In this document: in pieces, positions 9,461 through 49,177 of the stretch
Layout: every line of letters starts with the position of its first letter
Numbering within the stretch: position 1 is the first letter of the stretch
Source of the DNA: Opitutaceae bacterium
GTDB taxonomy: Bacteria > Verrucomicrobiota > Verrucomicrobiia > Opitutales > Opitutaceae
Direction of reading: 5' to 3'
NCBI GenBank assembly: GCA_027482185.1
Contig: JAIXWF010000003.1
Coordinates: 62,001-126,000, forward strand
Length of the DNA stretch: 64,000 nucleotides
The notes under the pieces: model-generated
What the model was told of the DNA's origin: nothing
What the model saw: only the letters and a program-made list of their open reading frames with translations
The model's database searches: none
Position numbers and translations under genes: made by a program

Positions 9461-9524
9461 GGGGCGGCGGGGAACGAGGGTGACGGGACGACGGCGGGCA
9501 GGACGCAGCGGAAAGGGAAAGGGC

Positions 9525-12029
9525 TCAGGGGGCAACGGCGGCGAGACCGCGCTCCGGGGCGACGGTGCGCTGTTTCTGGAACGGCACGGACTCGATCACG
9601 CCCATCAGGAGGGCGGAGAACTTGCCGTCCTCGCGCTCGAGGCGCGCGATGATCTCGTCGAGGGCGAACGTGTCGTAGTACTCGAGGCCGCGGCCGAGCG
9701 CATAGGTGAGCAGCTTCTCGGCGAGGCAGTGGTAGACGTCGTGTTTCCGGTCGCGGACGATCACGCGCTTGAGTTCGCGGACATCGGCGAACTTTTCCCC
9801 GGTGACCAACTTGCCCGCGGGATCGATCGGCTGGCCGGCGTCGCGGTCGCGCCAGGCGCCGAGGGCGTTGAAGTTCTCGAAGGCCAGGCCGAGCGGATCC
9901 ATGCGTTCATGGCAGGAACTGCACAGGGCGTTGGCCCGGTGCACGGCGAGCATTTCGCTGAGCTTGGGCTCGCGGCCCTTGAAGTCTTTGCGCGCTTCCT
10001 CGAGGTCGGGGACGTTGGGCGGGGCCGGCGGCGGGGGCGTGCCGAGGATGTTCTCGAGAATGAAGAGGCCGCGTTTCACCGGCGACGTACGCGTGGGGTT
10101 CGAGGTCACGGCCAAGATCGTGCCCTGCGTGAGCAGGCCGCCGCGGGGGCTGCCGGGCGGGAGCGTGACGCGCTGCATCTGCTCGCCCTTCACTTCGACC
10201 GGAATGCCGTAGAACGAAGCGAGCTTCTCGTTGAGGAACGTGTAATCGCTGTCGATCAACTCGAGCACGCTGCGGTCCTCGCGCATCACGTATTCGAAAT
10301 ACATTTCCGTCTCGCTGCGCATGAGCCGGCGGAACGGCCCGTCGAACTCCTGCCGGCCCTCGCGGTTGCGGGGCATGGTGTTGCCCATCACGGCGCGGGG
10401 ATTGATCGGAACGAATTCGATGTCGCGGGCCTGGAGCCATTGGCCGGTGAAGTTGCGGATGAACGCCTGGGACTTCGCATCTTTCAACATGCGGTCGACC
10501 TGGGCGCGGAGGTTGCGGCGCAGTTCGCCGGCCCCGGCCAGCCGGAGCAATTCGTCGTCCGGCATCGAAGACCAGAGCAGGTACGACAGGCGCGAGGCCA
10601 GGGAGTATTCGTCGAGGGGCGCGACGGGCTCGCGGGCAAACTTAGGATCCGGCGATTCGACGCGGAACAGGAACCGCGGCGACGCCAACACGGCCATCAT
10701 CGCGCGACCGATGCCTTCCTCGAAGGTCTTGCCGCCGCCGGCGTAGGCGGCCTTGGCCAGCGCGGTCAATTGGGCGAGGCGCTCGGGCTCGACCGGGCGA
10801 CGGTAGGCGCGCGTGGCGAAGCGGCCGAGGATTTCCATCGCGTAAGCGTCGCGGGCCTTCGCGTCCGCCGGAGCCGGGCCGCGGGGGAAGAAACGGTCGT
10901 GGTTCTCCGGCGCCACCCAATGCTCGGGGCTCAGCGGGCCGCGGACCGTCACCGACGCCACGCGGGCGGTGACGCTGGTCGCGCCGGGCCGGGGGCCGTC
11001 GCCGCGCTTCGCGCCCGGCGGCGGCGTGGGCTCGGGCGGGGGAACGACGCCGTCGACCGGCGGCAACGGCTGCACCTCGAAAGCGACGACGTGGTTGCCG
11101 GGCTGCCAATCGAATTCGAAATCGCGCAGCACCTTGCGGCTCTCGCTCCACACGACGTCCTCGGTGTGCATCGGCTGGCCGTCGACCGTGCAGACCAACT
11201 TGCAATGGCTGGGGTCGAAGTCGAAGGACCCGCGCACCTCGAGCTCGATGGAGACGCGGTAGCGGTCGGCTTTGTCGACGTAGAAACTGCGGGAAACCTT
11301 GGCCGCGTTGCGCGCGTTGAGGCGCTCGCCGGAGGCGCCGCCCTCGCCGCGGAAATCGCGGCCCGCGGACGTGCGTTCGCGGACAATCCGGGCCACCTTG
11401 GGCACGGCCTTGTCGACGATCGTCTCGGCGGCGGAGAGGTATTTTTCGAGGAGGAGCGGGGAAATGGTCAGGACGTCGCCGTTGTTGTCGAAACCGTTGC
11501 CGCTGTCGTCGGGCGGGAATTCGACCTCGCTGTTGAAATCGTACCCCATCAGGTCGCGGATGGTGTTGCGGTATTCGATGCGGTTGAGGCGGCGGGAGGT
11601 GACGCGGCCGGGATCGGGATTGGCCGGGTCGATCCCGAAGGCCTCGAACTTGATCCATTTGACCAAGGTTTCGATCTCCGCCGCGGTGGGCCGGGAGTTT
11701 TCGTCGCCCTCTTCGCGCGGCGGCATGAGACCGCCCTGCACGTTCTTCAGCGCCGCCCACCAAAGGTCCTTGCGCGCGAGCAATTCGGCCGGAGAGGCAA
11801 ATTCGTCGAACGAAACCTTGCCCTTGCTCAGGCCGTTGCCGTGGCAGTCGTAGCAATACTTCTCCAGCAACGGTTCAACCTTGGCGTGGAACGAAGCGAG
11901 GGCCGCAGGCTTGGACTCGGCCGCACCGACCGTGCCGGCGCCCAACCAAGCGGCGGCAACCGCGGCCAAGGCACGGAATTTCGGGGTGAAAGGGGAAACC
12001 GGGGCGGGGAGCACGCGAGCAAGACGCAC
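9525..12029 (-). CDS. DUF1592 multidomain cytochrome-like protein
   Basis: 834 residues from a GTG, with an N-terminal signal peptide (LAAVAAAWLGAGTVGAAE). The order fits the planctomycete-type architecture. First is a PSCyt1-like segment with a heme motif CYDCH (near residue 60). Then come DUF1587 (RRLNRIEYRNTIRDLMGYDF), DUF1595, DUF1592 (LASRLSYLLWSSMPDDEL), DUF1588 with a second heme-type motif CSSCH, and DUF1585 at the C-terminus. It is a periplasmic or outer-surface protein of unknown activity, presumably working with the downstream DUF1552 partner. A GC-rich stem near 12080-12110 separates it from dgt. Confidence 0.92.
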   Translation of the reverse strand: MRLARVLPAPVSPFTPKFRALAAVAAAWLGAGTVGAAESKPAALASFHAKVEPLLEKYCYDCHGNGLSKGKVSFDEFASPAELLARKDLWWAALKNVQGGLMPPREEGDENSRPTAAEIETLVKWIKFEAFGIDPANPDPGRVTSRRLNRIEYRNTIRDLMGYDFNSEVEFPPDDSGNGFDNNGDVLTISPLLLEKYLSAAETIVDKAVPKVARIVRERTSAGRDFRGEGGASGERLNARNAAKVSRSFYVDKADRYRVSIELEVRGSFDFDPSHCKLVCTVDGQPMHTEDVVWSESRKVLRDFEFDWQPGNHVVAFEVQPLPPVDGVVPPPEPTPPPGAKRGDGPRPGATSVTARVASVTVRGPLSPEHWVAPENHDRFFPRGPAPADAKARDAYAMEILGRFATRAYRRPVEPERLAQLTALAKAAYAGGGKTFEEGIGRAMMAVLASPRFLFRVESPDPKFAREPVAPLDEYSLASRLSYLLWSSMPDDELLRLAGAGELRRNLRAQVDRMLKDAKSQAFIRNFTGQWLQARDIEFVPINPRAVMGNTMPRNREGRQEFDGPFRRLMRSETEMYFEYVMREDRSVLELIDSDYTFLNEKLASFYGIPVEVKGEQMQRVTLPPGSPRGGLLTQGTILAVTSNPTRTSPVKRGLFILENILGTPPPPAPPNVPDLEEARKDFKGREPKLSEMLAVHRANALCSSCHERMDPLGLAFENFNALGAWRDRDAGQPIDPAGKLVTGEKFADVRELKRVIVRDRKHDVYHCLAEKLLTYALGRGLEYYDTFALDEIIARLEREDGKFSALLMGVIESVPFQKQRTVAPERGLAAVAP

Positions 12030-16968: not shown

Positions 16969-18282
16969 TCAGCTGCCCGAGAAGAAATCGCGCACGTGCG
17001 CCGCCACCTGCGCGCGCGGCACCTCGACTTCGTTGCGCTGGTTCAGGTCCCGGATCTTCACGACGCCCTTCGCCAATTCGTCGCCGCCGTAGATCAACGC
17101 CAGCTTCGCGCCCGACTCGGTCGCCGCCTTGAACTGCTTGCCGAAGGCCAGCTCCTTCATCGGATAGTCGACGCGGTAACCGGCCGCGCGCAGCGCGTGG
17201 ATGTCGCCGAAGGCCGCCTGCCGTTCCGCCTCGCCGCCGATGACGCAGTAGACATCCGGCGCCTGCACAAACGTCGGCATCAGCCCGCGTTGCTCGAGCA
17301 ACAACGCAAAGGTCATGTCGCCGATCGCGAAGCCCACCGCCGGCAACGCCGGACCGCCCAGCTTCTGCACCAGGTCGTCGTAGCGCCCGCCGCCCGCCAA
17401 CGCGCGCAGCTCGCCCTTCCGGTCGAAGGCCTCGAACACAAATCCCGTGTAGTACGCGAGTCCGCGCACCACGCCCAGATCAACCTCGACGAAGCGCGCC
17501 AGTCCCATCGCGTCGAGCGCGCCGAGCAGTTTGCGCCAATCGGCCAGCCGGCCCGCCAATTTCTCGCCGCCCAAGGTCTGCAACTTGGCCTCGAGCGCCG
17601 GCAGCGACTTGATCTGCAGGAAATCGAGGATCGCCGTTTTCAGCTCCGGCGCCAGCGGCCCGAAGGTCTCGGTGTAACCTTTGAACGCGTCGTCGCCGTA
17701 TTTCTCGTAACGATCGATCGCGCCGAGCACGCCGCGCGTCCGCGCTTCGTCCAAGCCCAACGCCTCGAGGTAATAGAACCACAGGTTCCGGTCGCTCAGG
17801 CGCACGTAGAAATCCTGGTCCGTCAGCCCGAACGCGCAGAGGCATTGCACGAGCAGCGCGATCAATTCGATCTCCGCCTCCGGGCCCGGCTCACCGAAGA
17901 TGTCGGCGTTGAACTGGAAAAAGCAGCGGCCGCGGCCCTTCTGCATCCGCTCGTAGCGGTAGAATTCCGCGATGCTGAACCACTTGATCGGCCGCTTCAG
18001 CGCATTCGCCTTCGCTCCGACCAACCGGCACACCGTCGGCGTCATCTCCGGCCGCAACGCCACCTCGCGCCCTCCCTTGTCCGTGAAACTGAACAGCTGG
18101 TTTTCGATCTCGTCGCCCGACTTGGCCTTGTACAGGTCCAGCGGCTCCAGCACCGGCGCATCGTACTCGGCGAAACCGAAGGTGTTCGCCGTCTGGCGCC
18201 ACAGCCGGAACAGATGGTTCCGGCGCGCCAAGTCTTCGGGATAGAACTCGCGGAAACCGGGAAGCGTCTGGAACGTGGCCAT
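16969..18282 (-). CDS. hisS: Histidine-tRNA ligase
   Basis: 437 residues from ATG 18282 (MATFQTLPGFREFYPED); the frame is open upstream without conservation. It is a class II synthetase. The motif 2 region RYERMQKGRGRCFFQFN, the histidine-A motif GLAYYTGFVFEAF, motif 3 AGGGRYDDLV and a C-terminal anticodon-binding domain are visible. It charges tRNA-His; a tRNA-His gene lies at 62261. It is convergent with cdd and is separated from the upstream HU gene by a terminator. Confidence 0.96.
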   Translation of the reverse strand: MATFQTLPGFREFYPEDLARRNHLFRLWRQTANTFGFAEYDAPVLEPLDLYKAKSGDEIENQLFSFTDKGGREVALRPEMTPTVCRLVGAKANALKRPIKWFSIAEFYRYERMQKGRGRCFFQFNADIFGEPGPEAEIELIALLVQCLCAFGLTDQDFYVRLSDRNLWFYYLEALGLDEARTRGVLGAIDRYEKYGDDAFKGYTETFGPLAPELKTAILDFLQIKSLPALEAKLQTLGGEKLAGRLADWRKLLGALDAMGLARFVEVDLGVVRGLAYYTGFVFEAFDRKGELRALAGGGRYDDLVQKLGGPALPAVGFAIGDMTFALLLEQRGLMPTFVQAPDVYCVIGGEAERQAAFGDIHALRAAGYRVDYPMKELAFGKQFKAATESGAKLALIYGGDELAKGVVKIRDLNQRNEVEVPRAQVAAHVRDFFSGS

Positions 18283-18322
18283 GGAGCCCGGACGTTGCGA
18301 AACGCCCCCGGCCGGCGCCACC

Positions 18323-18353
18323 AAAAAAATAGGCCGGTCGTTGGGACCGGCCT
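18323..18353 (-). terminator. Intrinsic terminator of the HU gene
   Basis: On the minus strand, AGGCCGGTC and GACCGGCCT form a 9-bp perfect stem followed by ATTTTTTT. It starts six bases after the HU stop codon and lies upstream of hisS. Confidence 0.92.
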
Positions 18354-18358
18354 GAGCC

Positions 18359-18715
18359 TCAATCGTTGTCGCCGTCCGCGTCGCCGTCGGCGGCCGCCGG
18401 CGCATTCGCCTGCAACTTCGCCAAATCCAGCTTCTTCAGCTGCTGCTTCAGGATCTTGCCGGATTTGAATTTCACCACGGCGCGCTGCGGGATGACGACT
18501 TCCGCCTCCGGCTTGTTGGGATTGCGGCCGATGCGCTGCTTGCGGACCTGGACTTCCAGGACGCCGAAGTTGCGCAACTCGACGTTTCGACCGTTGGCCA
18601 GTGCCTTCTGGACGATGTCCAAAGTCTGCTGCACAGTGTCGACGATCTGTTTCTGGGGGAATCCCGACTTACGATAGATCTCCAGGACGATTTCGCGTTT
18701 GGTCAGATTAGACAT
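18359..18715 (-). CDS. HU/IHF family DNA-binding protein
   Basis: 118 residues from ATG 18715. That start has a clear ribosome binding site (AGGAG, seven bases upstream), so the longer frame to 18766 is rejected. It contains the HU fold pattern: NLTKREIVLEIY at the N-terminus, LRNFGVLEVQVRKQRIGRNP as the DNA-binding arm with its Pro, and VVKFKSGKILKQQL. An acidic C-terminal tail (about 15 residues ending DGDADGDND) is not typical of short HU. It is a nucleoid-associated protein and ends at its own terminator. Confidence 0.93.
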   Translation of the reverse strand: MSNLTKREIVLEIYRKSGFPQKQIVDTVQQTLDIVQKALANGRNVELRNFGVLEVQVRKQRIGRNPNKPEAEVVIPQRAVVKFKSGKILKQQLKKLDLAKLQANAPAAADGDADGDND

Positions 18716-18721
18716 GGGTGA

Positions 18722-18727
18722 TCTCCT
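18722..18727 (-). promoter_or_regulatory. Ribosome binding site of the HU gene
   Basis: The minus strand reads AGGAGATCACCC before the ATG at 18715, a strong Shine-Dalgarno at good spacing. It decides the start of the HU gene. Confidence 0.75.
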
Positions 18728-18845
18728 TCTGGTTAAGCTGCCCGTGTGGTTCCGGAACACCTTCATCTATTTGCATTCCCGTAATTGCGTCAACCTCTAT
18801 GACCAATTTGCTTTACCAGTTTTAAGCCACGATTTCCTCCCCACC

Positions 18846-19544
18846 ATGCCCGATCCCGTAGCCGTCAACTCCATGTTCGCGCGTATCGCGCGGCGCTACG
18901 ATCTGGCCAACCGCCTGCTCAGCGGAGGCATGGATGTCTGGTGGCGCCGGGTGCTGGTCCGCCGGGTCGCCCGCCAAACCCCGGCCGACCTCCTCGACCT
19001 TGCGACCGGCAGCGGCGATGTCGCCTTCGCCCTCGGTGCCGGCATCCCCGGCGCCCGCCGGATTCTGGGCATGGATTTTTGCCAACCCATGCTCGATGAG
19101 GCGGTAAAGAAAAACACCGGCGACCGCCCGGCCTCCGCCCGGATCACGTTCCGCCAAGGGGACGCCCTCGCCCTGCCCCTGCCGGATGCGGACTTCGACG
19201 CCGTCACGATTTCCTTCGGCCTGCGCAACTTGGCCGACCGCGACCGCGGCCTGCGCGAAATGCGCCGCGTCCTCCGCCCCGGCGGCCGCCTCTACGTCCT
19301 TGAATTCTCGCAGCCGTACCCATGGTTCCGGCCGATTTATTTTTTCTACCTCCGCCACATTTTGCCCCGCGTGGCCGGTTGGCTGACCGGCGATCGCGCC
19401 GCCTACGGTTACCTCAACGACACGATCGAACAGTTTCCCGACCGCCCCGCCCTCGCCGCGGAGATCGCGCGCGCCGGGTTCAAACGCGTCGACGCCACCG
19501 GTCTCACTTTCGGCATCGTCGCCCTGCACATCGCGGAGGCTTGA
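18846..19544 (+). CDS. ubiE: Demethylmenaquinone/ubiquinone methyltransferase
   Basis: 232 residues from ATG 18846. The UbiE/MenG pattern is clear: NSMFARIARRYDLANRLLS, a SAM motif LLDLATGSGDVAF, then TISFGLRNLADRDRGLREM and PGGRLYVLEFSQP. It methylates demethylmenaquinone (or the ubiquinone precursor), the last step of menaquinone synthesis. Verrucomicrobia usually use menaquinone, which fits the ACIII respiratory cluster at 41-49 kb. It is divergent from the HU gene. Confidence 0.93.
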   Translation: MPDPVAVNSMFARIARRYDLANRLLSGGMDVWWRRVLVRRVARQTPADLLDLATGSGDVAFALGAGIPGARRILGMDFCQPMLDEAVKKNTGDRPASARITFRQGDALALPLPDADFDAVTISFGLRNLADRDRGLREMRRVLRPGGRLYVLEFSQPYPWFRPIYFFYLRHILPRVAGWLTGDRAAYGYLNDTIEQFPDRPALAAEIARAGFKRVDATGLTFGIVALHIAEA

Positions 19545-38153: not shown

Positions 38154-38813
38154 TCAGGGCAGCTTCTCGAGCTCGGCGACCTTCATCGCAGCGCGGTTGC
38201 CTTCCTTACCCTTGATCTCGGCGACCTTGGCCGCAGTGACCGGACCGGAGGTGTTGCCCCACTCCTGGCGGATGTAGGTCAGCACGGCGGCAATCTTCTC
38301 GGGGCTCAGGTTGAAACCGGAGCCGGGACCGGCCGCCGGCATCACGCCGTTATAGTCGACGCCCTTGACCTTGATCGGACCCTCGAGCCCGTAAAGCACG
38401 ATGCGGATCGCACGCTCCTCGGAGGCCACCCACTCGGAAGCCGCCAGAGGCGGGAACGCCGGGGGCAGGCCCATGCCGTTGGGCTGGTGGCAGCTGGCGC
38501 ACACCTGCGCATAGACCGCCTTGCCGAGCACGATGGGATCGACCGCCGGAGCGGCCGCGACCTCGCCGGCCTTGGGCGGCATGGCGTACTCGTTGTAAAC
38601 CTTCGGATGGAAGTGACCGGAGAAACGGCCGAGATAGGTGCCGCCGAAGAAGATCAGTCCGCTGAAGAGAAACAGCAGGGCCAAAGGCGCCAGCTTGTAG
38701 TGGGCCTTCTCGTCCGGTTGCTTGCCGATCAGCTTTTCATGCGCCGCCATCAGACTCTCGTCCGTGACCGCGGCCTGGTCGACGCGCTTGTCCTGGTGCA
38801 TCGGCGAGCTCAT
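38154..38813 (-). CDS. Membrane-anchored monoheme cytochrome c, CcoP-like position
   Basis: 219 residues. A membrane helix (LAPLALLFLFSGLIFFGGTYLG, about 41-62) follows a soluble N-terminal segment. A class I cytochrome c domain then has heme motif CASCH (105-109), with a likely distal Met in NGVMPAAG. In cbb3 oxidases this place would be taken by diheme CcoP; here only one heme is seen. The start overlaps the CcoO-like gene by four bases. It is the last gene of the ACIII operon and a candidate electron acceptor or donor for the complex. Confidence 0.88.
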   Translation of the reverse strand: MSSPMHQDKRVDQAAVTDESLMAAHEKLIGKQPDEKAHYKLAPLALLFLFSGLIFFGGTYLGRFSGHFHPKVYNEYAMPPKAGEVAAAPAVDPIVLGKAVYAQVCASCHQPNGMGLPPAFPPLAASEWVASEERAIRIVLYGLEGPIKVKGVDYNGVMPAAGPGSGFNLSPEKIAAVLTYIRQEWGNTSGPVTAAKVAEIKGKEGNRAAMKVAELEKLP

Positions 38814-39448
38814 TTCTTGGCCTCTTCTTTCTTGGCCGCGACGGTGAACGGACGGGCCTCGGGATAATCGTAAGTCGTGTTGGAATTCAGCAGGTAGGCC
38901 ACAAGGGTCTGGGCCCGCTCCGAAGGCACGATCTGCCGGCCGGCCGGCGAAGCCGCGAGGGCCTTGGTCGAGCGCTGGCCGTCGATCGCTTTGTCGTCGA
39001 AGAGGAATTTGTAGGCCGGATGCGCGGCGCTGCCGGCATAAAGGAATTGGTATATCGCGTCGGCCGCGGCCGGACCCTTTTCCTTCTCGATGCGACCGCC
39101 GTAATTCATGAGGTCGGGGCCGAGCCGAGCCACGCCGAGCTGCGGTTTGGCCTGGAAGATATAGTCGCGGGCGACGCTCTGCCGCTCACCCCATCCGCGG
39201 GCCTGGTCGGCACCGAAACCGGGACGGCGCACCTGCTGCGTATGGCAGGACGCGCATCCGAGATCGGCGTAAACCAATTGCCCGCGCGAGGCGACACCCT
39301 GCGGGCGCAGCGGGAACGCGTTGCCCTGCGTGTCGTCGTAGTAAGGCGCGAGCGAACCCAGCTGGTAATGGGAGCCGAGCACGATGCCGCCCCACGAAAT
39401 GCCGACCGCGGCGAGGAGGCCAAAGAAGAAGACGGGACCGTTTTTCAT
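38810..39448 (-). CDS. CcoO/FixO-like monoheme cytochrome c
   Basis: 212 residues from ATG 39448. An N-terminal membrane anchor (VFFFGLLAAVGISWGGIVLGS) is followed by the CcoO-type heme motif CASCHTQQVRRPG (Cys65-His69) and RLGPDLMNYGGR. In CcoO the distal ligand is a Met in an SxMPxY-like segment. Here the equivalent reads GSAAHPAYKF, with His143 where Met is expected, so the heme may be bis-His. It overlaps its neighbours on both sides by four bases. It accompanies a degenerate CcoN-like protein. Confidence 0.85.
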   Translation of the reverse strand: MKNGPVFFFGLLAAVGISWGGIVLGSHYQLGSLAPYYDDTQGNAFPLRPQGVASRGQLVYADLGCASCHTQQVRRPGFGADQARGWGERQSVARDYIFQAKPQLGVARLGPDLMNYGGRIEKEKGPAAADAIYQFLYAGSAAHPAYKFLFDDKAIDGQRSTKALAASPAGRQIVPSERAQTLVAYLLNSNTTYDYPEARPFTVAAKKEEAKK

Positions 39449-40872
39449 GTCGCGGAGCCCTCCAAAGCGGCGGGCTGACGGAAGAGAGTTTGCGGCTGGA
39501 CGGAAGGACCGCTGAAGGCCAACGCCGTCTGCAGGAAATTGACCAGCAGGAGAAGGTTGGCCGCGAGCAGCAACAGGTAGGCGGAAATCACCCCGAGCAA
39601 AGGCAAACCGATCCGCTGTGTGATTTCCCCGAAGGAAACCTTGGCATCGGCCAGCAGGCCGGCCTGCGTCGAGCCGGCGGCGCACAGCGCCACCAGCAGA
39701 ACGACAATGCCGATCGACACCAGCACTCGGTGGCCGGCAGCCAAACCGGCTGAAGCCCAGGGCCGGGACGTGATGCGCGGCACGAGGAAATGGATCGCAC
39801 CAAAGAAGAGCATCGAAACCGCCCCATAGAGCGCGAGCTGTTCAAGGGCGACCGCCAAGAAGGTGAACTGCACCCCGAGGGCGGCGCTGCGGAAGGAGGT
39901 GTAGAGCTCGAGCACGCCGACCAAGATGTAGGCCAAGAGACCGAAGCGAATGTACTTCGCCGCCTCACCGGACGAGCCGGTCGCGATCCGCAGGTTCAGG
40001 AATACGACGAGGTAGTGGAAAATCAGCATGCTGCCCGCCATGACCGCCATGGTCGCGATCCACGCCGGCACCGGACCGCCGATGAGGTGGCGTCCGCCGG
40101 TCCAAGCCCCGAGGAACATCAGGGTCCAGAAGCCAAGGGAGGCGAAATCGTAATTGGGCATCAGTTTGCCGGCCGTCTTCGGCACGACGAAATAAGCACC
40201 CGCGAGGGCCAGCGGCGCGAGCCAGAGGGTCCAAGCCGCCTGCGCGTACCACGTCGCGGCGATCGCCTGCACGACGCCGCGGACCGGCAACCAGAGCAGC
40301 ACGAGCTGCGCGGCAGCCAGAATCCAGGGGAGAATGAAAAGGGCGGCGACCGCGTACCACTGGGCGGCGAACGTCGTGTCGTTGCGGCGGCCGATCCAAG
40401 CGAGAACGCCGGGGACCGCGATCGCCGCGTAGGCGATTGCCATCGCCGGGAGCACGTAGCGCGGCAGCTGCAGGAAGGCGAACCCGCTCATGTCGCCGGT
40501 GGCGATACCGACGAGGCCGACCGCAAGGGCCGTGTTCCAGAAGAGCGTGCCGATGACGGCCCAATTCAAGCCGCGCAGGGGGCTGCCGCCGAGGCGACCG
40601 AGGACCCAGAGCGCAACCGCCAAGCCGGCGTTGGCCAGCCAGCCGTAGATGAACGTGCTCTCGCGCAGAGCCTGCGCGCGGCCATGGGTGAGCCAGGCAC
40701 AATCGGCCATGAAGCCGGGAGTACGGAGCTGGATCGCGGTGATCAGCGCCAGCACTCCGCTGATCACGAGCCACAGCAGACCGGACCCGATCAACAGCAG
40801 CAACGGGCCGCGGGCGTGGGTGTCGGTCGGAGTGACTTCAGCCGAAGCGGCGTGGGTCGGTACGTTGGTCAT
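39445..40872 (-). CDS. CcoN-like heme-copper oxidase subunit I homologue lacking ligand histidines
   Basis: 475 residues from ATG 40872, with about 12 membrane helices. The fold relationship to cbb3 subunit I shows in GAYFVVPKTAGK, the FWTLMFLGAWTGGRHLIGG region and AIHFLVPRI. By eye the positions that bind heme and copper are changed. Helix II reads ALRESTFIYG (Arg70-Glu71) where a heme His is expected. Helix VI reads WYAQAAW (Ala210-Gln211) where GH is expected. Helix VII has Arg261-His262 in place of His-His. Helix X reads ALEQLALYG (344-350) in place of the HxH pair. It therefore cannot be a standard oxidase. It lies in the ACIII operon between a small membrane protein and the CcoO-like gene. 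Confidence 0.8.
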   Translation of the reverse strand: MTNVPTHAASAEVTPTDTHARGPLLLLIGSGLLWLVISGVLALITAIQLRTPGFMADCAWLTHGRAQALRESTFIYGWLANAGLAVALWVLGRLGGSPLRGLNWAVIGTLFWNTALAVGLVGIATGDMSGFAFLQLPRYVLPAMAIAYAAIAVPGVLAWIGRRNDTTFAAQWYAVAALFILPWILAAAQLVLLWLPVRGVVQAIAATWYAQAAWTLWLAPLALAGAYFVVPKTAGKLMPNYDFASLGFWTLMFLGAWTGGRHLIGGPVPAWIATMAVMAGSMLIFHYLVVFLNLRIATGSSGEAAKYIRFGLLAYILVGVLELYTSFRSAALGVQFTFLAVALEQLALYGAVSMLFFGAIHFLVPRITSRPWASAGLAAGHRVLVSIGIVVLLVALCAAGSTQAGLLADAKVSFGEITQRIGLPLLGVISAYLLLLAANLLLLVNFLQTALAFSGPSVQPQTLFRQPAALEGSAT

Positions 40873-40895: not shown

Positions 40896-41228
40896 TTACT
40901 TCTTCGCGCCGTAGCGCTGCACCGTGAGTTCCATCGCCCGCTCGATCGGGAGTTGGACTTTGCCGGCCTGCTGGTCGATCCATGCGTAGCCGGAAACCTG
41001 CTTGGCTTCGTTGGCGCGCAGGTCGGCGAGCGCTTTGCGGCGGGCCTCGGGCGTGGCCCGCCATTCGAGTTCCTTGGTCAGATTCTCGGCCGCCAAATTC
41101 TGCGGGGAGGTCGCGGCCGGCTTGTAGTAGTGGCGCGCGATGAAGAAGAACGTCGCGAACAACAACGCCAAGCAGACGATGGTGAAGAGCGAGACGGGAC
41201 GCGCCGGACTGGCAGAATGATCACTCAT
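40896..41228 (-). CDS. Small single-helix membrane protein of the ACIII operon
   Basis: 110 residues. One membrane helix (VSLFTIVCLALLFATFFFIA, about 12-32) is followed by a soluble charged domain ending GYAWIDQQAGKVQLPIERAM. Similar WVD...V.IPIDRAME endings occur in small proteins encoded near cytochrome oxidases, as I recall. Its start overlaps the actF stop by eight bases. It may be an accessory subunit or assembly factor; no cofactor motif is seen. Confidence 0.75.
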   Translation of the reverse strand: MSDHSASPARPVSLFTIVCLALLFATFFFIARHYYKPAATSPQNLAAENLTKELEWRATPEARRKALADLRANEAKQVSGYAWIDQQAGKVQLPIERAMELTVQRYGAKK

Positions 41229-42498
41229 GGTGAGTCAGGCTTTCGCCGATGCGGGGATCGCGGATCGGGATGAGTTTGGCCGTGGGGAAGCTGCGAAGGT
41301 AGGACCAGACACAGATGCCGCCGACACCGACGACGGAGGTCAGCGTCCAAACCAAATTGAGGGAAAGGAACGGCAGCGAGTCCTCGTGCGAATCCTTCAT
41401 CGCCGGCAGGATGTTGTAGCACATATCGAGCAAGATCACGCCGAGGATCCAGAACGCGATCCGGCGGATGATGTGCGGCGTCACCTTGAAGCGGTAGGAC
41501 AGCAGGAAGAAGAACGGCAGGAAGAAGTGGCCGAAGAGCAGCGCCAGACCGACGTACCACCACTGGTTAGTGGAGCCGTCGTGGTTCAGCTCGCGCAGGT
41601 TGTACCAGAAGGTTTCTTCGGGCACGTTGGCATTCCAGATCAGGAAGTACTGCGAGAACGTCACGTAGGCCCAGAACACCGTGAACGCGAGCATCAGCAT
41701 GCCGATGCTGTGGTAGTGGTTCTTGTTGAGAATGCCCTTGTAGTCGCCGCGGGCCGCCAGCCACACCATGATGATCACGCCGACGGAAAGAGCACCGCGC
41801 ACGCAGTTCGCGAAGAACCACACACCGTACATGGTGGAGAACCAGTGGTACTCGAGGGACTTGACCCAGAAGATCGCAATCGCGGTCAGGGAAAAGGCGC
41901 CGATCGGCAGACCGAAGGCCGCCGTCTTACGATTCATGAACGTCCACTTCAGGTCGCCGTCTTTGTCCTGGGTGAAGGACGCCTTGCGCAGCCGCGCGGC
42001 GAGCCACATCCAAAGCAGGAAGGAGCCGAAGGTACCAATGAGGAAAGCGTTGCTGTTGAGGAACGCGGACTTCTTCAGGTAAAGCGGATCGTGGCCGACC
42101 GTGTGGCCGCCGTGAATCTCATTCGTCAGATCCATCCAAGGCCAGACGAGGTCGGCGTTGTGGCCGAGGAAAGGCGTGATCGCGAGCGGGAGGAAGAGGA
42201 GCGCGAGCCACTTGAAGGCCGAGAGGCCGTGCTCGAACTGGCGCCGGATCACCGTCGACCACGAAGCGTCGAAGATGTGGTGGATCAGGCACAGCATCAG
42301 CATGCCGATCGCGATCGCGGTCCAAAACGTCATGCCGACGAGCCAAGAGTAGGCGACGACCTTTGTCCCGGAGACGAGGAGCCCCACCAGCGTGAGGGCA
42401 ATGCCGACGGCGCCAATGACCAGCGCCTTGGTGGCGGCCGGAGCGGCGGCGGACTCGGCGGGAAAAGCCGCGGGAGCGGTGGCTGCGGGGGAACTCAT
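41221..42498 (-). CDS. actF: Alternative complex III subunit ActF
   Basis: 425 residues, a polytopic membrane protein with about 10 helices. It is related to NrfD-type quinone-interacting subunits, as expected for ActF. It follows actE with a four-base overlap. Its large periplasmic or cytoplasmic loops (GHNADLVWPWMD; NEIHGGHTVGHDPLYLKKSAFLN split around the helix) match the type seen in ACIII. It forms half of the ActC/ActF membrane core and takes part in quinol oxidation or proton movement. Confidence 0.9.
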   Translation of the reverse strand: MSSPAATAPAAFPAESAAAPAATKALVIGAVGIALTLVGLLVSGTKVVAYSWLVGMTFWTAIAIGMLMLCLIHHIFDASWSTVIRRQFEHGLSAFKWLALLFLPLAITPFLGHNADLVWPWMDLTNEIHGGHTVGHDPLYLKKSAFLNSNAFLIGTFGSFLLWMWLAARLRKASFTQDKDGDLKWTFMNRKTAAFGLPIGAFSLTAIAIFWVKSLEYHWFSTMYGVWFFANCVRGALSVGVIIMVWLAARGDYKGILNKNHYHSIGMLMLAFTVFWAYVTFSQYFLIWNANVPEETFWYNLRELNHDGSTNQWWYVGLALLFGHFFLPFFFLLSYRFKVTPHIIRRIAFWILGVILLDMCYNILPAMKDSHEDSLPFLSLNLVWTLTSVVGVGGICVWSYLRSFPTAKLIPIRDPRIGESLTHHE

Positions 42499-43133
42499 TG
42501 GATTCCGAGGGATTTCTTGGCCGCGGGGTCCTGGACATCGGCGGCGGTGCCGAGCTGCGCACGCTGGAGGGCGCGAACGTAGGCGACAACGGCCCAGCGT
42601 TCGTCCGGCGTCAGCTTGTCGGCGTACGGCAGCATGGTGTTCTTGCCGTTGGTGATCGTGTTGTAGAGCTCGCCTTCCGGCATAGAACGGAGGCGGTCAT
42701 CGTGGTACGTCGGGGTCGCACCCATGCCGTATTTCTTGGTGATGCCGTTGCCGTCGCCGAGGGCGCCATGGCAAACGGAGCAGTAAACTTGGTAACGGTC
42801 CCGACCGCGCTCGAGGAGCTTCAGGTCGACGGGCAAGTCGGCCGGGAAACCGACGGCAAACGCACCGGCGGAATCCTTGCCAAGGTGGCGGTGGTCATCG
42901 TCGCGCAGCATGCCGCGGGCAACCGTGTGGGCCGGCGGCGTGCGGTCGGCGCGGCCGTCCGCGAAGAACTTGCTCTCCGCCTGGGGCCGCAGCTTCGGCG
43001 TGTGCTTCATGCCGGGGAACGCCCACTCGGGGAAGACGTCCATCGGCGGCAGCGTGAAAGGCGTGTCGCGGAACCCGAGGATCGAGACCACGAGCACGCA
43101 GACGAAGAAGGTGATGAGGTAGACGTGGCGCAT
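42495..43133 (-). CDS. actE: Alternative complex III cytochrome c subunit ActE
   Basis: 212 residues. A hydrophobic N-terminus (VYLITFFVCVLVVSILGF) is followed by a proline-rich linker and a class I cytochrome c domain with heme motif CSVCH, near residue 118. It passes electrons from the ActB/ActA side to the outgoing acceptor. It overlaps actF by four bases and follows actD by three bases. Confidence 0.92.
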   Translation of the reverse strand: MRHVYLITFFVCVLVVSILGFRDTPFTLPPMDVFPEWAFPGMKHTPKLRPQAESKFFADGRADRTPPAHTVARGMLRDDDHRHLGKDSAGAFAVGFPADLPVDLKLLERGRDRYQVYCSVCHGALGDGNGITKKYGMGATPTYHDDRLRSMPEGELYNTITNGKNTMLPYADKLTPDERWAVVAYVRALQRAQLGTAADVQDPAAKKSLGIQ

Positions 43134-43136
43134 CGC

Positions 43137-43670
43137 TCAGGGCTCCAGCTCGGCGATCGCCTTGCCGCCGGCCTTCTCGAGGAGGGCCTTGGTGTTGGCG
43201 AGATTGAAGCGCGGGTCGCGCGCCTCGATAACGATGAAGAAAGTGTCGTCCATGCCCTTCCGGATCTGGTCGTACTTCAGCACCGGGTGGTAGTGCATCG
43301 GGAGACCGTTCAGCACGAACATGCCGATGATCGTCGCGAAGGCGGTGAAGAGAATGGTCAGCTCGTAGCTGACGGGAAACGCGAACATCGGGCTGAAGTA
43401 GGGCTTGCCGCCGACGATCAGCTTGTAGTCGACCGCGCCGGTCCACCAGATCATGGTCATGCCGGTGCAGAAACCGGTGATGCCGCCGGCGAGCGAGATG
43501 CGCGGGACGATCGAGCGCTTCAGGCCCATGGCCTTGTCGAGGCCGTGGACCGGGAAGGGCGTGATGCAGTCCCAATTGCGGTAACCGGCGTCGCGGACTT
43601 GCTCCGCGGCGTGGTACAGCTCGGGAGCGGTGTTGAAGGTGGCGATCAGGCCGTAGGATGGTGCGGACAT
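43137..43670 (-). CDS. actD: Alternative complex III subunit ActD (DUF3341)
   Basis: 177 residues. It has the DUF3341 pattern YGLIATFNTAPELYHAAEQVRDAGYR split by conserved Gly and Asp, then two membrane helices (SLAGGITGFCTGMTMIW and TILFTAFATIIGMFVLNG). It is a structural membrane subunit of ACIII without cofactor. It lies between actC and actE. Confidence 0.92.
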   Translation of the reverse strand: MSAPSYGLIATFNTAPELYHAAEQVRDAGYRNWDCITPFPVHGLDKAMGLKRSIVPRISLAGGITGFCTGMTMIWWTGAVDYKLIVGGKPYFSPMFAFPVSYELTILFTAFATIIGMFVLNGLPMHYHPVLKYDQIRKGMDDTFFIVIEARDPRFNLANTKALLEKAGGKAIAELEP

Positions 43671-43682
43671 CGGCTTGAAGGA

Positions 43683-45110
43683 TTAATGGTGGTCGTGGCC
43701 GCCGTGGACGTCGGCCTGGGGCGTGACCGCCTTGAGTTCCGCCATCGGCATGACGGGCAGGAACCGGATGAAGAGCAGGAAGAGCACGGAGAACACGCCG
43801 AAGGTGCCGAAGAACGTGAAGATCTCGACGATCGACGGGCTGTAGTAACCCCAGCTCGACGGCAGGAAGTCGCGGGCGAGCGAGGTGACGATGATCACGA
43901 AGCGCTCGAACCACATGCCGACGTTGACGAAGATGGAGAGGATCCAAACCAGCGCGGTGTTCTCGCGGATCTTCTTGAACCAGAAGAACTGCGGCGTGAT
44001 CACGTTGCACGAGATCATGATCCAGTAGGCCCACGCGTAGTGGCCGAACGCGCGGTTGACGAAGGCGAAGCCCTCGTAGGGGTTCGCACCGTACCACGCG
44101 ATGAAGAACTCCATGCCGTAGGCGTAGCCGACGATCGTGCCGGTCGCCAACGTGATCTTGCACATGCAATCGATGTGGTACTGCGTGATGAGATCTTGCA
44201 GGCCGTAGACGGCGCGCAGCGGCAGCATCAGCGTAAGCACCATGCCGAAGCCGGAGAAGATGGCGCCCGCAACGAAGTACGGCGGGAAGATCGTCGTGTG
44301 CCAGCCCGGCAGGAGCGAAACAGCGAAGTCGAACGAAACGATCGTGTGCACGGAGAGCACGAGGGGCGTCGAGATGCCGGCGAGGATCAGGTAGGCCATC
44401 TCGTAGTTGCTCCAGTGGCGGTTGGAACCGCGCCAGCCCATGGCGAACAGGCCGTAAAGGAACGAACGGAATTTGTTGCCCGCGGCGAAGAAGCGGTCGC
44501 GCAGGACGGCGAGGTCGGGAATGAGACCGACATACCAGAAGAGCACCGAGACCGTGCCGTAGGTCGAAACCGCGAACACGTCCCACTCCAGCGGCGAACG
44601 GAAGTTCTGCCAGATGACGTTGGAATTCGGGATCGGGAACAGGTACCAGGCGTACCACACGCGACCAACGTGGAAGACCGGGAAGATCGCGGCGCAGACG
44701 ACGGCGAAGATCGTCATGGCCTCGGCGGCGCGGTTGATGGACGTGCGCCACTTTTGCCGCAGGAGGCACAAGATGGCGGAGATGAGCGTACCGGCGTGTC
44801 CGATACCGATCCAGAACACGAAGTTGACGATATCCCACGCCCAGTTGACCGGGTTGGCGTGGCCCCAGACACCGACGCCCGTGGCGACGAGGTAGACGAT
44901 GCCGGCGACCGTGAAGGACGCGACGAAGCAGGCGAGGATGAAGCAGACCCACCACCACGTGGGCGTCTTGCCCTCGATGATGTTGCAGATCTTCTCGGTG
45001 ATCCACGAGAAGCTGCGGTTGTTCTCAACCAGGACCGCGCGCGGCAGCGAGGCCGGTTTGACCTCCTGCAGAATCGGGTTCGCGGCGGCGGCGTGTTCGG
45101 CGTGAGCCAT
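43683..45110 (-). CDS. actC: Alternative complex III NrfD-like subunit ActC
   Basis: 475 residues, a polytopic NrfD/PsrC family protein with about 10 helices (for example [18 protein letters not shown] and [19 protein letters not shown]). It holds the menaquinol oxidation site of ACIII in characterised complexes. It lies 30 bases downstream of actB. Its neighbours fix the assignment. Confidence 0.94.
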
Positions 45111-45140: not shown

Positions 45141-48100
45141 TTAGTGCCCACCCTTTTTGGAACCATGCGAGTCGTGGCTGCCGTGGCCGTCGCCGTGGGC
45201 GGCGGGCACGTTCTTCTTCTCGTATTCGATGCGGCTGGCCGGCAGCTTGTTGTAGCCGGGCATCTTGGGATTCGGATTGCGCAGCTTGCCGGAATACGTG
45301 GTGCGCGGGCGGATGTTGAGGTAGCCCAGCACTTCGTAGTCCTGATCGCGGGCCTTGGCCTTCGCGACGGCGCTGTCCTTGTCGAGGAGATTGCCGAAGG
45401 TGATCGCGTTGACCGGGCAGGTCTGTTCGCAGGCGGTCTTGATGGTGCCGTCCGGTACCACGACGTTCTCCGGCGTGCCGGCCTTGGCCATGCGGACCTT
45501 GTGCTGGATCTTCCCGTTTTGGATGCGCTGCACGCAGTACGTGCACTTTTCCATCACGCCGCGCATGCGGATCGTGACTTCGGGATTCTTGCCCATCGCG
45601 ACGAGCTCGGGCATGCCGAACTCGGCCAGCTGGCTCATGTACAGCTGGTCCAACTTGCGCTGGTTCCAGTCGAAGAAGTTGAAGCGACGGACCTTGTAAG
45701 GGCAGTTGTTCGCGCAGTAGCGCGTGCCGATGCAACGGTTGTAGGCCATCGTGTTGAGGCCTTCCTCGTCGTGAACGGTGGCGTTGACCGGGCAAACGAC
45801 TTCGCACGGGGCGAGTTCGCAGTGCACGCAGGTCATCGGCTGGACGGAAACCTGGGGATCTTCGGGGAGGGCCTTGTTGCCCTCGCCGCCGAAGGCCTCG
45901 CCGTCGATGTTGCCGTCGGAGTAATAGCGATCAATGCGGATCCAGTGCATCTCGCGGCCGCGGGCGACCTGTTCGCGGCCGACGATCGGGATGTTGTTCT
46001 CCGCCTGGCAGGCGACAACGCACGCGTTGCAGCCGATGCAGACGTTCATGTCGATCGCCATGCCCCACTGGTGGTGGCCGTCGAACTGGGGCGTCTTGTA
46101 GAGCGAGTTGCCGCGCGGGATATCTTTGGAGATTTCGGCGCGGGCCTTGATGCGCTCCTCCGGGCTGAGCTTGTTGAAGGACTCGACGGTGTACTTCGCC
46201 CCGAGGTTGCTCGGCGCGTGCGACTCCATGCCGAAGGTATCGACGAAGGTCGGAGTCTGGTTGTACTCCTCGAGGTTGGCTTCGCGGATGATGTCGCGGC
46301 CTTCCATCGACCAGTGCTCCTGGGTGTTCGCCAGCATCTGGAACTCACCCGTATTGTTCAGCTGAGCGCCGGTGACGGCGTAGGGGGCGGCAGACGTGCG
46401 GATCGGGTAGGCGTTGTAACCGGCGCCGTTGCCGACATGGCCGGCGGCGGAGCGGCCGTAGCCGAGCGTGACAACGACCGTATAGCTGGCGAGACCGGGC
46501 TGGATGTGGACCGGGCCGCGGACCTTGCGGCCGCCGACCACGAGTTCGAATACCGGAGCCTTCTCCTTGCCCATCGAATACTCGGCCTCTTCCTTGCGCG
46601 CGACTTGGATCAGCGAGCCCTTGGGATCGATGCCCAGTTCCTTGGCCAGCTTGGGGCTGACGAGGATCGCGTTGTCCCAGGAAATCTTCGTGATCGGCTC
46701 GGGGCACTCCTGCAGCCAACCGTTGTTGGCGAAACGGCCGTCGTCGGCCTTGACGTCGGCGATGAAGCGGACCTCGAGGTTCGCCTTGCTGAGCGTGGCC
46801 AGCGGGGCGGCGGGTTTGAAGAGCTGCTCGACATCCGACTGGTTGAAACGGACCGCCACCGGGCGGGCGGCCGAGCCGGCGAGGAGGCCGTCGTGCAGGA
46901 AACGCTGCATCGCCTTGTCGGCCTTGGTGCCGGCGCCGGCGAGGGCGGTGATCGTCTCCAGCACCAGCGCGTAGGAATCGGGATTCGCAACGCCGGCGAG
47001 GCGCGCGAGCACTTCGATCTGCGTCAGACCGCCGAAGAGCGGCTGGATCATCGGCTGCACCGGAACAACGGTGCCGTCGACCGTGCGGGCATCGCCCCAC
47101 GATTCAAGGTAGTGGGCGGCGGCGAGCTGGACGGTCGCCGCGGGGTTCACCGCGGAGGTCTCGTCGACGTAGTAGCCGTAGCGAATCACCTCGGGCACCG
47201 ACTTCTGCAACGCGGTCCAATCGAGATCGGCGGGCGCGTTGTAGGCGGGATTGCCGCCGAGGATCACAAGCGTCTTGACCGAGCCGGCCTTGATGGCGGC
47301 GGCGAGGGTCGCGATGGAGGGGGCGGCGGCTTCGGTCGGGATGAAATCGACCGTGGTCCCGATGTTGCCGAGGGCGGAGTTGAGACCGTGGACGATCGCG
47401 TGGACTTCGACGGGCAGGTGCGAACCGGCCACGACGAGGCAGGAGCCGCGGTGCGCGAGCAGGTCGGCAGCGCATTCCTCGATCCACTTGGCGGGAACCT
47501 GGAGACCTTCGGCGTAGGGCGCGAGGGAACCGGCCACCTCGGGGAAAAGGACGGAAGCGAGCTTCGCCGTGAAGGCCAGCATATGGCTGGTGGCGAAACG
47601 GAGGCGATGGTCCGCCATGCTGCCCGTGAGCGAGAGCGCGCTCTCGGCCACGTACAGGCGGTTCATCGGATCGTTGGCCTTGGCCACACGGCGGCCGTTG
47701 GCGAAGCCGCGGGCGTAGTAGAGGCTGCCGGCCTCGGACTGGAGGAAGTCGGCGTCGATCGAAACGATGCGCTTGGCCTTCGCGAAATGGCACAGCGGCT
47801 TCACCGGGCGGCCGAAGGCGGCCTGCGCGGCTTCCACCGGGGGCTCGTCGGCGATCGGCTCGTACTCGGACCAAAGCGCGCGCGGGAACTTGGCGCGCAG
47901 GGCCTTCACGAGGCGCTGGCGGGTCGGCGACGAGGATTCGTCGGCGAGGAAAGCGAGGCCCGCGCCGTTTCCGGCGGCGTAATTCTTGGCGATGCCGTCG
48001 AGGAGGGCGTTGACCGCTTCGGCGTTGAGCTGCTGGCCACCCTTGGTGTGGGCGGTGGCGCGGTCGGGATCGTAAAGGTCGAGGATGGACGCCTGCGCCT

Positions 48101-48521
48101 TCAGCGTGGCGGCGCCGCCGTGCGGCTGGTAGGTCGGATTGCCTTCGAGCTTGGTCGGGCGGCCCTGATGGGTCTCGGCCAGCAGCGGAATCGCGGATTT
48201 GCGCAGCGGCATCGCCGTCGCGTAGTAGGACGGCAGGCCGGGGATGATTCCCTCCACGGATTTGCCGTAGGGCAGAATGAATTTCTCCGGACGACGGCAG
48301 CCCGCCAAGCCCGCGCCGCCGAGCGCGAACGAGGCCGCCATGATCTTCATGAAGTTGCGGCGATCGACGCCGTCCAACTCCGCCGCTCCCTCGGGGAACT
48401 CGCGGGCGAGCTGGGCCTTGAAGCCGGGGGTGCCGGCGAGCTCGTCGAGGCTGCGCCAGTACTTCGGGCCGGTGAGCTGCTCCTCAGCAGACGGAGCGGG
48501 ATGGTCAAATTTGCGTTTCAT
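45141..48521 (-). CDS. actB: Alternative complex III iron-sulfur subunit ActB
   Basis: 1126 residues from ATG 48521. The N-terminus has a Tat-type motif (DRRNFMK, near residue 55) and then a lipobox-like LAGC, suggesting a lipid-anchored, Tat-exported protein. The first part is a molybdopterin-oxidoreductase-like fold that holds no cofactor in known ACIII. The C-terminal ferredoxin part has four Cys clusters: [35 protein letters not shown] with CTYCV, and CEQTCP. It conducts electrons from quinol to the cytochrome subunits. The four-base overlap with actA indicates coupled translation. Confidence 0.96.
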
Positions 48522-49177
48522 CGATGGCAGCCGGAGCAGCTCTGCGGGGGCATCAACTTCCAGTCTTTGTGAAATTTCTCGGCGATCTTCGCCCCTTCGG
48601 CGCCCTGATCGACCAAGCGTTTCGAATCCAAATTGTAGACGTCCTTCGGGTCGCGCAGGCGTTCGGCCGGGGCGCGGTGGCACTCGATGCAGAACGCCAT
48701 GCTCAGCGGCTGCGAGTGCTTCACGACGTCCATCTCGTTGACCTTGCCATGGCACTCGACGCACGAGATGCCGCGGTTCACGTGGACGGCGTGGTTGAAA
48801 TAGGCGTAGTCGGGCGTCTGGTGGATCCAGACCCACGGCACCGGGGTGCCCTTTTCGTAACTCTCACGGACGGGGGCCAGCAACGGACTCGTGGTCTTGA
48901 TGATGCTGTGGCAGTTCATGCACGTCTGGGAGCTCGGGACGTTGGAGTGCCCGGACTTGTCGACGTTGGAATGGCAATAACGGCAATCGAGGCCGACTTC
49001 CTGCACGTGCTTGGCGTGGCTGAACGGCACGGGCTGCACCGGGGCGTAGCCGACGCGCGTGTACTTCGGCGTCATGTAGTACGTGACGCCCGCCGTGGCG
49101 ATGCCCGCCAAGACACCCAGATAGATCACGATCTGGAGCGGCAGCTTGTTCGCCGACTTCGGGAAGATTTTCGACAT
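48518..49177 (-). CDS. actA: Alternative complex III pentaheme cytochrome ActA
   Basis: 219 residues. A membrane anchor (LPLQIVIYLGVLAGIATAGV) is followed by five CxxCH heme motifs: CRYCH, CMNCH, CVECH, CIECH and CSGCH. It is the first gene of the operon. ACIII oxidises menaquinol and reduces periplasmic cytochrome c, replacing the bc1 complex, none of which is seen here. Confidence 0.95.
   Translation of the reverse strand: MSKIFPKSANKLPLQIVIYLGVLAGIATAGVTYYMTPKYTRVGYAPVQPVPFSHAKHVQEVGLDCRYCHSNVDKSGHSNVPSSQTCMNCHSIIKTTSPLLAPVRESYEKGTPVPWVWIHQTPDYAYFNHAVHVNRGISCVECHGKVNEMDVVKHSQPLSMAFCIECHRAPAERLRDPKDVYNLDSKRLVDQGAEGAKIAEKFHKDWKLMPPQSCSGCHR

Follow-up and report, generated by a model that had tools for sequence, protein, structure and literature searches.

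A CcoN-like subunit I without most of its heme and copper ligands in the ACIII gene cluster of an Opitutaceae bacterium and its relatives

The window analyzed here, a 64,000-nucleotide stretch of an Opitutaceae contig, contains a gene cluster for alternative complex III (ACIII) in which actA, actB, actC, actD, actE, actF, a 110-aa open reading frame, and three genes referred to here as N, O, and C follow one another on a single strand (Table 1). N, which encodes a CcoN-like subunit I and lies on the minus strand, starts with an ATG at 40872, ends with a stop codon at 39445-39447, and has no internal stops. The stop codon of N overlaps the start codon of O in the sequence ATGA, and the same overlap joins the end of O to the start of C. 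The first-pass annotation had described N as translationally overlapping its neighbours; this is the case for the downstream FixO-like gene, and on the upstream side a gap of 23 nt separates N from the 110-aa open reading frame. N is thus followed immediately by FixO-like and CcoP-like genes, the counterparts of the CcoO and CcoP partners of CcoN, and the products of both are far under the curated ccoO and ccoP cut-offs. In the O protein of the window, the position of the distal Met, which we take to be a heme ligand, reads His.

Table 1. Genes of the ACIII cluster in the window, with the basis of each assignment
Feature	Coordinates	Strand	Basis
ActA multiheme cytochrome c	48518..49177	minus	PF14522 E 1.3e-12; sub-threshold QrcA model match, E 5e-22
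ActB (ATG start assigned by reading)	45141..48521	minus	name from gene order
ActC (NrfD family)	43683..45110	minus	PF03916 E 2.1e-23
ActD	43137..43670	minus	PF11821 E 3.8e-65
ActE monoheme cytochrome c	42495..43133	minus	PF13442 E 1.1e-13; name from gene order
ActF position	41221..42498	minus	gene order; no Pfam/NCBIfam match alone
110-aa ORF, no Pfam/NCBIfam match	40896..41228	minus	between actF and N, also in many relatives
Ligandless CcoN-like subunit I (N), 475 aa	39445..40872	minus	PF00115 E 2.4e-21; ligand-site readings
FixO/CcoO-like monoheme cytochrome c (O)	38810..39448	minus	PF02433 E 2.3e-8; CxxCH present
CcoP-like monoheme cytochrome c (C), one N-terminal hydrophobic stretch	38154..38813	minus	PF00034 E 8.1e-11, PF13442 E 3.1e-9

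The membrane core of N is homologous to that of CcoN. N matches the Pfam COX1 model PF00115 with 76.6 bits, above the cut-off of 34.8, and a profile of 40 close relatives of N aligns positions 30-456 with CcoN of P. stutzeri (PDB 3mk7) at E 1.6e-21. These matches support a C-type oxidase origin, in line with the first-pass proposal of a module built from a dead oxidase. In the NCBI ccoN model N scores 60.3 bits, below the curated cut-off of 583.15, and homologues with all six His from two other genomes (G001 and G146) are likewise under this cut-off, with 253.5 and 245.1 bits. No NorB model is present among the NCBIfam matches of N, and of the His ligand positions, which are the same for NorB, only one is occupied by His.

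The ligand sites were read against the true CcoN of the same genome, in whose numbering the six His are 61, 208, 258, 259, 346, and 348. At these sites N possesses R, Q, R, H, L, and Q, and at the helix-VII Tyr site near CuB, presumably that of the cross-linked Tyr, it possesses Gly. The sole remaining His of the six that serve heme b, heme b3, and CuB is H262 (N numbering). The alignment agrees with the Arg-Glu, Ala-Gln, Arg-His, and Glu-Gln-Leu-Ala-Leu readings of the first-pass annotation and confirms that N is a CcoN-like subunit I stripped of almost all ligands. In a close-family alignment of 121 rows, comprising N and the best 120 of 853 matches, the helix VI CuB His site (CcoN 208) is Gln and the site of the first His of the HH pair (CcoN 258) is Arg in every row; the second His of the pair, H262, is present in 113 rows, and H286 and H381 of N are invariant (121/121). 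Since Arg, Gln, Gly, and Leu at the ligand sites leave neither CuB, nor the Tyr, nor either heme b site, N is predicted to be unable to reduce O2.

The distribution of N was determined by a profile search of 288 genomes sampled from the phylum; 89 match at E 1e-5, some of these matches being true CcoN. Within the class, 66 sampled genomes have a strong ActD match (E 1e-40 or better), and 65 of them carry N, 64 as detected by the profile search and one (G265) as detected at the locus. The arrangement actF, small ORF, N, O, C is repeated throughout the class, and this constant place in the act gene cluster upholds, by gene order, the link to ACIII that the first-pass annotation had proposed. At the 65 loci, N has all six His and the Tyr in 21 genomes and 0-3 His in 44, with no canonical His at all in eight genomes. 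Six families contain intact forms, and two of them, the window's (f1) and f2, contain both states; in the window's family 17 of 24 genomes are ligandless and seven are intact. Sister homologues that keep all ligands, an outcome which the first-pass annotation had set against its own reading, were found at the same locus in 21 of the 65 genomes; the loss itself is not undone by them. Rather, the intact homologues indicate that the loss is derived and repeated.

The one sampled ACIII genome of the class in which N was not found is G008; it gave no match in the profile search, and N, O, and C are all absent from its locus. Here (L199, 9600-14100) the genes that come immediately after actF and the small ORF read as CoxC, CoxD, and CoxB, and CoxA is also missing at that place. 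Thus, the module is dispensable in this genome. Among the remaining 28 sampled class genomes, ActD-like matches are at best weak (13 genomes) or absent (15). One of the 28 (G078), in which no ActD or ActC matches were found, has an N-like gene in an orphan N-O-C module (L144, about 9016-11182); its N-like ORF of 346 aa has none of the six His, and the genes beside the module read like what we presume to be heme-biosynthesis enzymes. Outside the class, ActD is present in 22 sampled genomes of the phylum. Six of these have no match to the N profile; the other 16 do, in each case through a frame of 715-783 aa (E from 1e-21 to 1e-15), and were taken as putative fused CcoNO. More than one ActD match was observed in nine genomes (G018, G042, G054, G072, G134, G143, G152, G243, and G265), a possible sign of a second ACIII or of a fusion protein.

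The absence of otherwise invariant residues is what a sequencing error or a decaying pseudogene would produce, an explanation to which we assign a negligible probability. It is ruled out by a relative of 96% identity that a database search returned from other sources, by an open frame of N free of stops in all 44 ligandless genomes, and by the Ka/Ks values of N, which range from 0.06 to 0.29 in pairs of ligandless genomes (11 finite of 12) and from 0.05 to 0.16 in intact pairs (five finite of 10), the pairs being hand-chosen and several Ks saturated. These values, well below 1 inside ligandless clades, also support the first-pass view that the gene is not a decaying pseudogene. For ActC, Ka/Ks is 0.07-0.21 in nine of the ligandless pairs, and in the nine ligandless pairs computable for both proteins the ratio of the N value to the ActC value runs from 0.9 to 2.9. 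N is thus under purifying selection that is somewhat weaker than that on ActC in most pairs.

The number of losses was estimated on trees that were all quick searches, several N branches being long. A tree of ActA-D with 64 rows, 18 of them intact (63 of the 94 loci, those having ActB, ActC, and N, plus the window), requires eight state changes and rejects a single ligandless clade (p-AU 2.2e-5). If regain is excluded, it requires nine losses; the raw count of 10 was read as nine because the root splits one clade. A tree of O and C with 63 rows, from which L144 and two loci with no detected C (L117 and L191) were left out, requires five changes and also rejects a single clade (p-AU 7.6e-33). 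The tree of N itself, built with the ligand columns removed, requires three changes, with p 0.058 for a single clade; once the longest branches are removed and a simpler model is applied, it requires two, with p 0.026, so that it is ambiguous about a single clade. A first N tree used 14 of 75 loci, with L150-L153 left out, and L144, L200, L125, and L126 were left out of the two-change tree. On the two-change tree, ligandless L153 is placed inside the intact clade of its family with a support of 95.9, joining L119 to that clade is not rejected (p 0.587), and a constraint uniting L157 and its family's seven intact rows meets weak rejection (p 0.038). Repeated ligand loss is firm on the operon trees, and its exact number is not fixed, being about nine on the ACIII tree and at least two to three changes on the N tree. 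The smaller number on the N tree and the result for L157 suggest that operons may have exchanged N to some extent.

The order of loss was read from relatives of the intact form at L124. Among the best 120 of 4526 matches, 119 were scored, and 107 of these are intact and 12 transitional. All 12 transitional relatives differ at a CuB His, at the Tyr, or at both, and none differs at a heme ligand; the changes replace the helix VI His by R, S, or N, the first His of the HH pair by Q, and the Tyr by S or T, one or two to a row (P0139, P0173, P0193, P0194, P0204, P0213, P0221, P0234, P0235, P0243, P0246, and P0248). In five of the 12 the Tyr is the only site changed, and these may still be active. 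In a wider sample weighted to the queries, 382 rows remained after three of 385 with gaps at the seven sites were dropped, and the numbers of rows with zero to six His are 19, 207, 10, 2, 0, 7, and 137. The helix-VII Tyr is present in 132 of the 137 six-His rows as against five of the 245 other rows. A strict all-or-none distribution, with either 0-3 or six His, was rejected on account of the seven five-His rows. Two loci, L120 and L121, retain just the low-spin heme b His pair (HNSQRYH).

The c-heme motifs of the partner proteins are retained. CxxCH is present in O in 65 of 65 genomes and in C in all 63 in which C was detected, 62 of these having its Met as well. The distal Met of O is kept in all 21 intact genomes, as opposed to 28 of the 44 ligandless ones. 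In the other 16 it is replaced by Cys (nine), His (three, the window included), Arg (two), Lys (one), or Ala (one), substitutions that would permit a possible shift of the O heme to bis-His or His-Cys ligation and that may mean that this heme is also drifting. A non-Met residue occupies this position at L128, L129, L133, L148, L194-L198, and in the window and close relatives, where it is His, and neither Cys nor His was ever seen there in the 21 intact forms. Additionally, an extra CxxCH gene lies between actF and N in eight of 44 ligandless genomes versus none of 21 intact ones. Its product, of 255-313 aa with one CxxCH, takes the place of the small ORF (L126, L129, L133, L148, and L195-L198). 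A ninth genome, G072, was dropped from this count, the gene there belonging to a 7-kb stretch of other genes. In that Methylacidiphilum-like genome (L141), about 7 kb of genes separate actF (17641-18846) from the small ORF (10348-10722), inside the run of ACIII, N, O, C, and coxA. These genes read like a cluster that we take to be that of nitrous oxide reductase (nos).

Apart from error or decay, three rival explanations of the ligandless protein were weighed. N could be a vestigial anchor, needed for O and C to fold or to insert into the membrane in a translationally coupled operon, with no role in electron transfer and itself being lost. We regard this as unlikely, yet as the most serious of the alternatives; the higher Ka/Ks of N relative to ActC, the restriction of a non-Met distal ligand of O to ligandless genomes, and the G008 locus without N, O, and C speak for it, but several separate losses have left N in place in 65 of the 66 ACIII genomes sampled from the class, its replacements at CcoN 208 and 258 are invariant in the close family of the window, and every detected O and C has its c-heme motif. 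The second explanation, that N still binds a cofactor such as a metal or heme through other ligands, for example H262, H286, or H381, is improbable. Conservation of these three residues in the close family suggests it, as do H381 in 38 of 44 ligandless genomes and the low-spin heme b His pair of L120 and L121. Across the ligandless genomes, however, H286 is His in only nine of 44, with Pro in 25 (as in every one of the 21 intact forms), and H262 is His in only 14 of 44, so that these genomes do not have the candidate ligands in common; H381, which the 21 intact forms all have as His too, is no new ligand, and the eight genomes without any canonical His also stand against this explanation. A role for N as an ion-conducting or regulatory module, providing a proton path or sensing gas or redox state without electron transfer, seems to us very improbable; the retention of the fold core over nearly its full length speaks for it, but the cluster, with its ten genes, showed no regulator.

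The source genome contains two further PF00115 genes, one for a canonical oxidase on contig C3, adjoined by a CoxB with a cytochrome c motif, and one for a CcoNO fusion on C19. Their location on other contigs means that no linkage backs a hand-over to a particular oxidase. All 44 ligandless genomes hold another PF00115 gene (E 4e-125 or better). Among the intact genomes, 19 have a further PF00115 gene too, and in the other two, G001 and G146, intact N is the sole PF00115 match. A search of the 65 genomes for bd oxidase, which found one in 22, found none in these two; if they respire, N would be their O2 reductase. At 20 of the 44 ligandless loci a coxA gene is found 1.4-2.3 kb downstream of N, and at one of the 21 intact loci at a distance of 2.4 kb on the same side, an adjacency clustered in a few families and hence not an independent count. 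A loss of CuA in the CoxB near the module was considered for loci without a match to a pattern that had demanded Glu, and was rejected. The four CoxB-like sequences read, from three of the 21 loci without a pattern match and from L199, all contain C-x-Q-x-C-G-x-G-H-x-x-M and retain the Cys, Cys, His, and Met of CuA.

These observations lead us to a model for the evolution of the module. Because intact homologues occupy the same locus, N in the ancestor of the class would have been the terminal C-type (cbb3-like) oxidase of an ACIII-oxidase gene cluster. In the lineage of the window and, independently, in several more, N lost the sites for CuB and for the two b hemes as well as the Tyr of the active center, a loss that would have started at CuB and the Tyr once another oxidase had taken over O2 reduction. 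N would have been retained as a cofactor-free membrane scaffold that docks the monoheme cytochromes O and C onto ACIII, so that electrons would pass from menaquinol to the ACIII hemes, from there to the hemes of O and C, and finally to a separate aa3/caa3-type oxidase, encoded just downstream of the module in some relatives and elsewhere in the source genome. The c-heme relay would remain under selection. That N is such a decommissioned C-type oxidase, kept as a cofactor-free scaffold with two c-hemes between ACIII and a separate oxidase, is in our judgment the probable reading of the residues and genes described above. The first-pass annotation had also offered an electron-conducting role for the protein itself. 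This is not supported, since N possesses no heme ligand pair; a plausible path runs through the neighbouring c-type cytochromes, and N now probably does no more than hold these electron-carrying partners in place.

The model bears on Methylacidiphilum. The N protein of G152 corresponds to a protein of Methylacidiphilum kamchatkense Kam1, and the same search gave a relative in M. infernorum that is 73% identical to its query. The His sites of the G152 locus and of M. infernorum (the latter by reading) are both S, E, S, H, F, and V, and no true CcoN was found in four Methylacidiphilum-type genomes, in which the best ccoN score is 28.5 bits. In the portions available of the published accounts, a shared location of the ACIII genes and a cbb3 oxidase is described and tied to high oxygen affinity (PMC6688271); cbb3, aa3, and ba3 oxidases are listed for verrucomicrobial methanotrophs, and ACIII with a C-type oxidase is restricted to these methanotrophs and Opitutaceae, with reference to Refojo 2010 on the ACIII-linked C-type oxidase (PMC8498564); and the cbb3 count is repeated (excerpts of PMC10205796 and PMC8170126). 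The ligand data argue against O2 reduction by the ACIII-linked "cbb3 oxidase" of Methylacidiphilum. We lean slightly toward the broader proposal that a class-wide wing of ACIII, formerly a cbb3-like oxidase, was repeatedly switched off in order (CuB and Tyr, then the heme sites) while its body and two c-heme partners were kept, so that it now would act as a pseudo-oxidase relaying electrons sideways to other oxidases, and that the Methylacidiphilum "cbb3" is such a protein, its high oxygen affinity coming from another enzyme.

The mode of respiration of an organism and the oxygen level at which it lives are inferred from oxidase genes counted by profile matches. The N family passes the PF00115 cut-off, yet the catalytic ligands are absent in 44 of the 65 genomes examined, and several sources name the family "cbb3-type cytochrome c oxidase subunit I". 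As far as their available portions go, PMC6688271, PMC8498564, PMC10205796, and PMC8170126 count ligandless N as an oxidase in verrucomicrobial methanotrophs. The natural series of intact, transitional, and ligandless forms allows a direct test of the order in which a respiratory active site is lost and of what follows from the loss. The gene link between ACIII and a C-type oxidase is already known. In the open-access literature searched, by titles and abstract openings, we found no paper describing a ligandless or inactive subunit I, ACIII-linked or of Methylacidiphilum included; the ligandless state, its repetition, and its loss order are to that extent unpublished.

Several known systems resemble the module in part. 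N resembles CcoN of the cbb3 oxidase in its near full-length profile alignment and in the CcoO-like and CcoP-like genes that follow it, but lacks five of the six His and the Tyr, and its partner C has one CxxCH. The ACIII-linked C-type oxidase, as it appears in the available parts of PMC8498564, is encoded in the same gene cluster as N; it is called an oxidase there, whereas here Methylacidiphilum and 17 of the 24 genomes from the window's family have a ligandless subunit I, the other seven an intact one. The ACIII-aa3 supercomplex of Flavobacterium johnsoniae (Sun 2018, as cited in excerpts of PMC8361435 and PMC8498564) shares the idea of direct electron transfer from ACIII to an oxidase, but its description in those excerpts includes no CcoN-like subunit. 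The unusual cbb3 oxidase of Nitrospina (PMC3578206) has a C-type subunit I in which substitutions have altered the surroundings of CuB; in the passages available, however, most cofactor sites are said to be kept, and no ACIII link is described. Finally, the NrfD-like membrane subunits, said in the accessible part of PMC8076601 to interact with quinones without redox cofactors, provide a likeness for a cofactor-free membrane subunit that anchors redox partners, although they belong to a family other than that of N.
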